Positions 19,719-22,322 of a DNA stretch of 22,327 nucleotides are shown here, piece by piece (within the stretch, counting starts at the first letter, position 1; each line of letters starts with the position of its first letter). Location of the stretch: positions 1-22,327 of IMG/VR virus record IMGVR_UViG_3300045927_000145. One strand, given 5' to 3'. A program made the position numbers and the translations under genes. This stretch comes from a virus. The notes beneath the pieces were generated by a model. It had not been told where the DNA came from. It saw only the letters and a list, made by a program, of their open reading frames with translations, and did not search any database.

Positions 19719-22208
19719 TCAAGGAATCGCGCGCTGCAGACCTCGGAAGTCCACGCACTCGGCGTCCCAGATGTGCCGCACCTTGAGCGTGATCTTCTCG
19801 TTCGTGAAGAAGGAGCCCACGTTCTGCATGTCCTGCACGAACAGGCTCGGCGTCTGGTTGCCGTTGAGGAAGCCGACCGAGACCGTCTCGGCCTCGTCCG
19901 GGGACGCGGCCATGATGTAGGTGTCCGCGTCGACGTCGTCGAAGTACAGCACCTCGTGGAGCTGCAGGCCGTAATCGCCCCGGACGATGTTCGGGACGTT
20001 CTGGTTGTCGAAGGTCAGCGACTTCGCCGTCCCGGCCGCCTGGTTGGAATCCGTGCCGACCAGCACCGGCTTGCGGTCCGACATGATCAGCTCGTAGGCG
20101 GCGTCGTAGATCGTCGAACCCACGAACACGTTGCGCGGCACGACGCGTCCCGCCTCGCGATCGTCGATGTCCTTCTGCTGGACCATCTCCCGACGCATGG
20201 TCTTCAGGTTGTTCAGCGAGAGGGCCGTGGTCACCAGATTGTTGTGGGTCGCGTGGAAGATCGCGGTCGCGTCGACCTGATAGTTGCCGTTGTTGAGGAG
20301 GACGTCCCACACGTCCTCGTTCAGGGTGCGCGCCGCCGCCCGGGCGAGCTTGCCGGGGATGCGCTGGAAGGCCCGGGTGTCGTCGTTGACGATCATCTCC
20401 CAGGTGTAGATGTAGAGCCCGCCGCGCTTGACGATCTTGAGCGTGATCTCTTCCTCGGTCGGCTCGTTGGCGCCGCCGATGTCGAGGTACGCCCCGCCTT
20501 CCGCGACGTTCGCGAAGTTCCCGAACTCGCCGAGCTTCAGGATTCGCCAGTTCTTGAAGTCCGTGACGTTCTCCGGGCTCGCGATCAGCCGCCACGTCAT
20601 GGGCTGCTCGGCGTACTCCCGGGCCAGCCGCTTGTGCTGGTACTCGGAGAGGATCGCCACGAAGTCCGTGGTGTTCTGTTCCTCGGTGACCCCCGCGGCC
20701 CTGTTCCTGAGCATCCACCGCACCTGGGGGTGGTGACAGACGTCCAGCAGGTCGAGCGACTCGAGGGCGCCGGGGAGCCGTTCGCGCCTGGGCCGGATGT
20801 AGAACTCCAGGCCCTCGCACTGATGGTCGCCCGTGAGGACGCTGTACGCGTGCCGGATGCCGCGGAACGCGTCGACGTGGGCGACGACCTTGCCATCCTT
20901 GTCGAGGATCGCGCCGCGCGGCTTCCCCTCGAGAAGCGCTTCGAGGGCCGCGAGCGCGTGGTGCCCCTTCGTGTACTGGGGCGAGGTGAGCCGGAGGGCC
21001 GCCTCGCGGCCGCTCTCGAGCAGCCCGCCGCCGGCGCCGGCGCTCTGGCCTTCGCCGAGCCCCTTCTTCAGGTCCGCGACGAATGCCGAGGCCTCCTCTT
21101 CCGTGATGTGCCCCATGGCCTCGAGGCGCGCGGTCAGCTTCCCGCGCAGGAACTCCTGTAGGCCCTTGGGCAGCGTCGCGGCCGCGGTCTTGAGGACCGA
21201 CTCGATCAGCGACTTGCCGTTGGCCTTCAGGATCTTCTTCACGGACTCGTCGAGTCCGTCGATGCGCTTGGCGAGGCCCTCGGTGGCCGCGCTCCCGGCG
21301 CCTCCACCGCTGCCCGCGCTCGCACCCGCCCCGGCGTCGCCACCGCCGCCGTTGCCCGAGCCCGCGCCGGAACCCTGCCCCGCGCCCTGACCCTGACCGG
21401 GGTCACCCGCCGGCGCCGGGTCGCTCTCGGGCGCCGTCCTGTACAGCGCCTCGAGCACCGCCCCTCTCGTGGCGGCCTCTGCCTTGACCGACAGCGCCTC
21501 GAAGAGCTGCGTCACCCACTCGCCGTGCCCTTCCACGAGCGCGGCGATCGTGAGGTCTTCGCCCTTCGGGGCCTTCCCTTCGAGCGCCGTGCGCTTGGCC
21601 TTGTCGCGCACGAGCCGGAGGAGCCTCGATACGAGTCCCTTCATCGTTGCCTCCTTGAGCGCTTCCAGTACCGACTCGAAGGCACCTCCGGCGCTCGGAA
21701 ATGACACCACGTCCCAACCGACGATCCGCGTGACTTCCTGCACGTCCACGCCGCCGCCCTTGATCTGCACGGACTTGATGCCGTCAGCGGGGACGTGAAT
21801 GCTCAGGCCGACGCGACGAGCCACGGCTCGCGCGCGCTCGAGGAGACCGCGGAACCAGCCTGCGTTGGTCCCGGGCATGATCTTCGCCCTGACGAATGCA
21901 CCCTCGGCATCGGTGTCGACCCAGGCCTCGGCGATCCTTCCGATCTCCGCCTCGGCGATCCGCTCCGGGAGGAACCGATTGAGTCCCGGGAATCGGCGCA
22001 GCAGCGAGGCCCAGTGGCCCGTGAAGCTGCCGTCGCCGGACTCGCTCATGTCGTAGAAGTGGATCGGCAATCCCTTCGCCAGCTTCGCGATCTGGTCGAG
22101 GATCGGGCGGCTCCAGCGGTTGCCGTTCTTCGACACGCCCTCACGAATCAGGATCGCTTGGAGCGACCCGTCTTCCTCGAGGAGGATGGATCCTTCGTCA
22201 GGGAACAC
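19719..22208 (-). CDS. Prohead protease - scaffold - major capsid protein fusion (829 aa)
   Basis: The GTG at 22208 has GGAG 6 nt upstream and follows the small upstream ORF by 3 nt. Residues 1-180 look like a prohead protease: SKNGNRWSRPILDQIAKLAK, GHW (His65), VGLSIHV (Ser136), VTRIVGWDVVSFPSAGGAFE. His65 and Ser136 are the likely catalytic pair of the assemblin-like serine fold. Residues 190-260 are helical; 265-310 are a Gly/Ser/Ala linker; 311-400 are coiled-coil-like, together suiting a scaffold. From about 415 to the end it resembles Mu gpT-like major capsid proteins: YTWEMIVNDDTRAFQRIPGK, LLNNGNYQVDATAIFHATHN, and the strands toward the end. All three roles are usually separate genes. 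Maturation would cut the chain; sites cannot be placed from sequence. Confidence 0.88.
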   Translation of the reverse strand: MFPDEGSILLEEDGSLQAILIREGVSKNGNRWSRPILDQIAKLAKGLPIHFYDMSESGDGSFTGHWASLLRRFPGLNRFLPERIAEAEIGRIAEAWVDTDAEGAFVRAKIMPGTNAGWFRGLLERARAVARRVGLSIHVPADGIKSVQIKGGGVDVQEVTRIVGWDVVSFPSAGGAFESVLEALKEATMKGLVSRLLRLVRDKAKRTALEGKAPKGEDLTIAALVEGHGEWVTQLFEALSVKAEAATRGAVLEALYRTAPESDPAPAGDPGQGQGAGQGSGAGSGNGGGGDAGAGASAGSGGGAGSAATEGLAKRIDGLDESVKKILKANGKSLIESVLKTAAATLPKGLQEFLRGKLTARLEAMGHITEEEASAFVADLKKGLGEGQSAGAGGGLLESGREAALRLTSPQYTKGHHALAALEALLEGKPRGAILDKDGKVVAHVDAFRGIRHAYSVLTGDHQCEGLEFYIRPRRERLPGALESLDLLDVCHHPQVRWMLRNRAAGVTEEQNTTDFVAILSEYQHKRLAREYAEQPMTWRLIASPENVTDFKNWRILKLGEFGNFANVAEGGAYLDIGGANEPTEEEITLKIVKRGGLYIYTWEMIVNDDTRAFQRIPGKLARAAARTLNEDVWDVLLNNGNYQVDATAIFHATHNNLVTTALSLNNLKTMRREMVQQKDIDDREAGRVVPRNVFVGSTIYDAAYELIMSDRKPVLVGTDSNQAAGTAKSLTFDNQNVPNIVRGDYGLQLHEVLYFDDVDADTYIMAASPDEAETVSVGFLNGNQTPSLFVQDMQNVGSFFTNEKITLKVRHIWDAECVDFRGLQRAIP
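21642..21656 (-). promoter_or_regulatory. Strong internal ribosome site within the protease-capsid gene (start at Met189)
   Basis: The minus strand reads AAGGAGG, a 5-nt spacer, then ATG in the same frame as the 829-residue protein. This would yield a 641-residue scaffold-capsid product without the protease. The match is stronger than the GGAG at the gene's own GTG start. Confidence 0.7.
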
Positions 22209-22211
22209 CTG

Positions 22212-22322
22212 CTACTCCGTGCCTTCTCCCGCCTCGGCGGTCTTCTTCGAACTGTCGAGAGGGAGATCGACCTGCGAACCGTCCTTGAACACGACGTGCA
22301 GGTAGGGCTCGATCGGCTTCAT
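22212..22322 (-). CDS. Short ORF at the window edge (36 aa or C-terminus of a longer gene)
   Basis: An ATG at 22322 opens 36 codons ending with TAG at 22212-22214, 3 nt before the protease-capsid start. The peptide reads MKPIEPYLHVVFKDGSQVDL, then PLDSSKKTAEAGEGTE. The frame is still open at the window edge, and no Shine-Dalgarno site can be seen in the 5 nt before the ATG. It may therefore be the end of a longer gene. No function is recognised. Confidence 0.5.
   Translation of the reverse strand: MKPIEPYLHVVFKDGSQVDLPLDSSKKTAEAGEGTE

Follow-up and report, generated by a model that had tools for sequence, protein, structure and literature searches.

Phages lambda (C/Nu3) and Mu (I/Z) are known to make nested in-frame products from their protease genes. 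In lambda, the minor product joins protease and scaffold, the major product is the scaffold protein, and the two are nested in frame and end at a common stop, while HK97 takes its protease (gp4) from a separate gene and makes gp5 as a delta domain joined to the capsid protein. In the Mu-like phage PaMx73, an in-frame internal start behind a Shine-Dalgarno (SD) sequence has been proposed at Val177, inside the protease gene (PMC4378225). Fusions of a prohead protease to a major capsid protein have also been described, and the portions of these reports available to us make no mention of an internal start (PMC5513430, PMC6536676, PMC8601537). Such fused genes pose a puzzle of stoichiometry, as one protease per capsid subunit would amount to hundreds of proteases per head.

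We analyzed a fusion gene of this kind in a stretch of viral DNA of 22,327 nucleotides (IMG/VR record IMGVR_UViG_3300045927_000145, positions 1 to 22,327), which is referred to as the window. The whole fusion ORF occupies 19719..22208 on the minus strand, as do all of its parts given below, and comprises 829 codons that encode a probable head-maturation protease, followed by a scaffold-like linker and then by a major capsid protein. Its GTG start codon (22206..22208), from which the full-length product would be made, is located three bases past the TAG of a preceding 159-aa ORF, which is seen whole in a second locus (L002). In a 53-kb record that carries the identical fusion gene, the ORFs upstream are presumably, on reading of the sequence rather than by database match, those of the terminase large subunit, the portal, and a minor head protein, followed by the 159-aa ORF; the same record contains no second PF25209 gene. 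Two contigs besides that of the window have a DNA-identical gene and add no evidence.

The major capsid domain (codons 505–826; 19731..20696) matches PF25209 (Phage_capsid_4) with 123.9 bits, well above the gathering score of 27. The models for known fusions align with the capsid part alone and stay below their cut-offs, at 169.7 bits against 525 for NF045541 (prohead protease/major capsid fusion protein; codons 497–826) and 153.4 bits against 475 for NF045540 (ClpP-like protease/major capsid fusion protein). The protease region, whose extent of codons 1–184 (21657..22208) comes from a profile built here, ends in FPSAGGAF. Its PHROGs match to phrog_15531, a head maturation protease, is weak in the window (E 0.013), and the same family matches all five members of the window's clade, A2, again weakly (best E 3.9e-4). 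Pfam and PDB profile searches with the protease domain of the window ORF gave no match, and tblastn with the protease part alone retrieved 0 isolated phages. AlphaFold models lacked the quality needed to search for similar folds, with a pLDDT of 48 for the N-terminal 257 residues and 38 for the full protein. The window's clade carries a different class of protease and, on the capsid tree, lies apart from most S78-type fusions. The scaffold-like region (codons 189–504; 20697..21644), for which a scaffold function is likely, would form the N-terminal part of a predicted short product of 641 aa. It includes a low-complexity stretch of ∼40 codons rich in Gly and Ala (21285-21407), most of which is missing in the four close relatives described below.

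Just past the end of the protease region, the minus strand reads GCG CTC AAG GAG GCA ACG ATG AAG GGA. The internal SD sequence AAGGAGG (21650..21656) is followed, after the five-nucleotide spacer CAACG, by an ATG (21642..21644) that is in frame as codon 189. The initial annotation had placed this candidate start, Met189, at the boundary between the protease and the scaffold-like region and had considered its ribosome site better than that of the gene start. Direct reading of the sequence confirms the motif, the spacer, and the position, and the ranking is borne out by anti-SD pairing energies of −10.6 kcal/mol for Met189 and −6.1 kcal/mol for the GTG with its moderate site CGGAGT (22214..22219), calculated with an anti-SD sequence that may differ from that of the host. 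Among the 39 in-frame ATG, GTG, and TTG codons of the ORF, Met189 has the best pairing, and the next best reaches −7.0 kcal/mol. The two strands of the whole window contain 422 ATGs, 6 of which have a site of −10.3 or better; four of these belong to the coding (minus) strand, where the three other than Met189 are the first codons of other reading frames (17253, 16111, and 11820). The mRNA is also comparatively open, as evidenced by a local opening cost at Met189 of 10.8 kcal/mol, the 6.8th percentile of a gene whose median is 17.3, with 12.9 kcal/mol at the gene start.

A strong SD need not signal initiation, as it could be a by-product of the encoded protein, with AAG GAG arising by chance wherever a G+C-rich gene encodes a linker rich in Lys and Glu. 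Indeed, Lys-Glu-Ala is naturally written AAG GAG GCN in a G+C-rich gene, so that an equally strong site is expected from codon usage, and 76% of synonymous resamples of the window give one at Met189. The codons chosen in the window therefore give, by themselves, no evidence of selection, and the case for the SD rests on comparison across relatives.

The initial annotation had named an outcome that would speak against the internal start, namely that close relatives lack Met189 or its ribosome site. The four relatives with about 50% protein identity (L003–L006) all retain the Met behind CAGGAGGA. In each of them AGGAGG is kept before the aligned Met, with a spacer that is one codon longer than that of the window and still suitable, and the SD energies are −2.1 to −4.6 at the gene starts and −10.3 at the internal starts. 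The best-scoring named phage, Microcystis phage Mae-JY22 (L019), has the same PSAGGAF end of the protease and keeps the Met, and its internal ATG has GGAGA eight bases away.

Other members of the capsid family show what the corresponding position does when the two parts are encoded separately. Four of them (L126, L127, L128, and L131) encode the protease in an ORF that ends at a stop of its own, and the next gene, for scaffold and capsid, lies behind AAAGGAG or CAGGAG and starts with MNKKLRxFL or a near match to it. The same type of N-terminus is found at the internal ATG of the fused relatives L121–L125. Split relatives start this gene at the place that corresponds to the start of the window's scaffold-like region. 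Faecalibacterium phage FP_Epona (L036) and two other loci (L195 and L180) are split as well, and the capsid tree requires at least five changes between the fused and split states over the bootstrap range. Since the gene start of the split forms matches the internal ATG of the fused forms, the same signal serves some lineages as a normal gene start and is internal to an ORF in others.

These changes of state also suggest a second alternative, in which the full-length fusion alone is made, its protease cuts itself free in cis or in the prohead, protease and capsid protein remain at 1:1, and the SD and ATG are an unused leftover of the ancestral separate gene. With fused and split forms interchanging, leftovers are to be expected, and the protease would share a chain with its likely substrate. 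A site that has no use is expected to decay, however, and its state across divergent fusions bears directly on this point.

Three scans of viral contigs, together with named phages, gave 237 ORFs with both protease and capsid, which clustered at 70% into 97 representatives; a scan of genome_contigs returned a single distant capsid gene and nothing else. In 95 of the 97 divergent fusion genes, an in-frame ATG is present 5–65 codons past the end of the protease profile. The ATG with the best SD of the whole ORF falls in this stretch in 57 of the 97, where random choice among in-frame ATGs predicts 10.6, and the median SD energy is −5.8 for boundary ATGs and −2.0 for the remaining in-frame ATGs (p 3e-25). 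Within the same stretch, the effect is slight or absent for ATGs in the +1 and +2 frames. As the 5–65 stretch had been picked after ∼20 phages were seen, the count was repeated without every locus seen earlier, which at 50% clustering gave 25 of 35 where 3.5 were expected. The result also stands at 40% clustering, with 13 of 20 where 2.3 were expected. Named members of the family in which the internal SD and ATG were found include MD8, Psul1, RcKemmy, and S1.

The family-wide comparison also supplies what the window alone could not. Boundary sites are stronger than their matched synonymous resamples (p 3.5e-6), while other in-frame ATGs do not exceed theirs and are slightly weaker. In 56 disjoint pairs, conserved residues at the SD codons have the identical codon in 91% of cases, compared with a background of 63%; synonymous conservation is raised at codons neighboring the SD too, and not solely on it. 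Open mRNA is confined to the site, with an opening energy of 7.8 kcal/mol at the internal start, 14.9 at 15–45 codons downstream, and 14.7 at 15–35 codons upstream. Unlike what chance spelling of a charged linker would produce, the site also corresponds to a real gene start in split relatives, and we regard the by-product explanation as very improbable. The explanation by an unused leftover is improbable too, if somewhat less so, considering that the boundary ATG persists in nearly all fusions with an SD beyond that of the resamples, open mRNA, and excess synonymous conservation. A third possibility is that the SD-like stretch has no part in initiation and instead delays ribosomes during elongation, which would allow the protease to fold. 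Although a pause would be well placed at a domain border, pausing requires neither an in-frame ATG at start-codon spacing, nor open mRNA, nor a match to the N-terminus of split relatives, and we consider it the least probable of the three.

The strength of the boundary SD varies over the family. It is −5.8 or better in 71 of the 97 representatives and −4.5 or better in 83, and about a quarter of the members have a weak one. Most of these exceptions retain the ATG, which in some cases follows an A-rich leader, and in a few a strong SD precedes a GTG or TTG. L176, L158, L145, and L088 keep the boundary ATG but have next to no SD, often with an A-rich leader instead; translation in their hosts may not depend on an SD. 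In the ClpP-type lambdoids L020, L025, and L026 (MD8, Gifsy-2, and mEp043), two ATGs with an SD are candidates, of which one (ETWM) falls inside the end of the ClpP fold and the other (EFxxM) just past it.

The internal site of the window is thus present, strong, accessible, and conserved, and it matches the gene start of split relatives. The reading that we favor, with a probability of roughly 0.85 on the sequence evidence, is that one gene with two in-frame starts and one stop would yield many scaffold-capsid chains and few protease-bearing ones. The upstream GTG, with its site of moderate strength adjoining the stop of the preceding gene, would give a minor full-length protease-scaffold-capsid protein, and Met189, with its strong and accessible site, would give the major product, a scaffold-capsid protein of 641 aa. 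Having scaffold and capsid domains of its own, the minor form would be able to co-assemble and carry the protease into the prohead, there to remove the scaffold. We infer the use of both starts, their ratio, the co-assembly, and the cleavage; the initial annotation's expectation of many capsid subunits per protease would follow from the same arrangement. A conserved second start would resolve the puzzle of stoichiometry, predict which proteins are made, and locate the real start of the capsid precursor for annotators and structural biologists.

Comparison with the described fusions suggests how far the arrangement may extend. The NF045540 and NF045541 proteins resemble the window in having protease and capsid in one ORF with a homologous capsid domain, and differ in that the window's protease belongs to another class. 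In Lactococcus phage c2, the l5 gene (NC_001706; L275:9418-10860) is likewise a protease-capsid fusion with a strong SD and an ATG right after the protease part, AAAGGAGA and ATG131, and in the NC_001706 record the mature protein begins at codon 206, 75 codons past ATG131. The c2 l5 capsid gave no match to the window's capsid family in the searches run and is therefore probably an independent fusion. Rhodococcus phage RRH1 (L277) has Met274 behind CGGAAGGA at the boundary. The actinophage fusion of Gordonia phage EpicDab (L276:5081-7408, gp9) has no strong boundary SD; there, an ATG behind AAAGGAA precedes the protease domain, so that the N-terminal membrane part may lie outside the main product. 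Overall, it is likely that phages with fusion genes routinely make their major capsid protein from an internal start in the protease gene, at least one probably independent fusion (c2) included, and that the full-length form, a minor subunit carrying the protease, brings the enzyme in by co-assembly. If this reading is correct, database entries for fusion-gene capsid proteins would carry the wrong N-terminus. A conserved second start also makes it testable whether the protease reaches the head as a tag on a minority of capsid subunits. The new elements would be the nesting of the capsid protein itself behind an internal start and the breadth of this arrangement across the family, for which the part of the literature searched gave no earlier report, though one may exist elsewhere.

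HK97 resembles the window in that a scaffold-like domain, removed in HK97 by the phage protease, is fused N-terminally to the capsid protein. Its protease gene is separate, in contrast to the fusion in the window, and it is the split relatives that resemble the HK97 layout. With Mu I/Z and PaMx73 the window shares an internal in-frame SD start in a protease gene, and Val177 of PaMx73 is close to the position in the window; the short product of those phages, however, is a scaffold alone with the major head protein separate, whereas in the window scaffold and capsid form one chain. Like lambda C/Nu3 and Mu I/Z, the window has an in-frame internal ATG with its own ribosome site past the protease, and a common stop; unlike in those systems, its capsid domain is part of the same chain as the scaffold-like region, and the 53-kb record with the identical gene has no second PF25209 gene. 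The resemblance to lambda C/Nu3 that the initial annotation had drawn is therefore partial. It fails as a matter of membership, since the nested product in lambda is scaffold only and capsid protein E has its own gene, while in the window the capsid domain lies in the same chain. It holds for the way of working, a nested in-frame arrangement with a common stop in which a minor product would bear the protease and a major product the scaffold.
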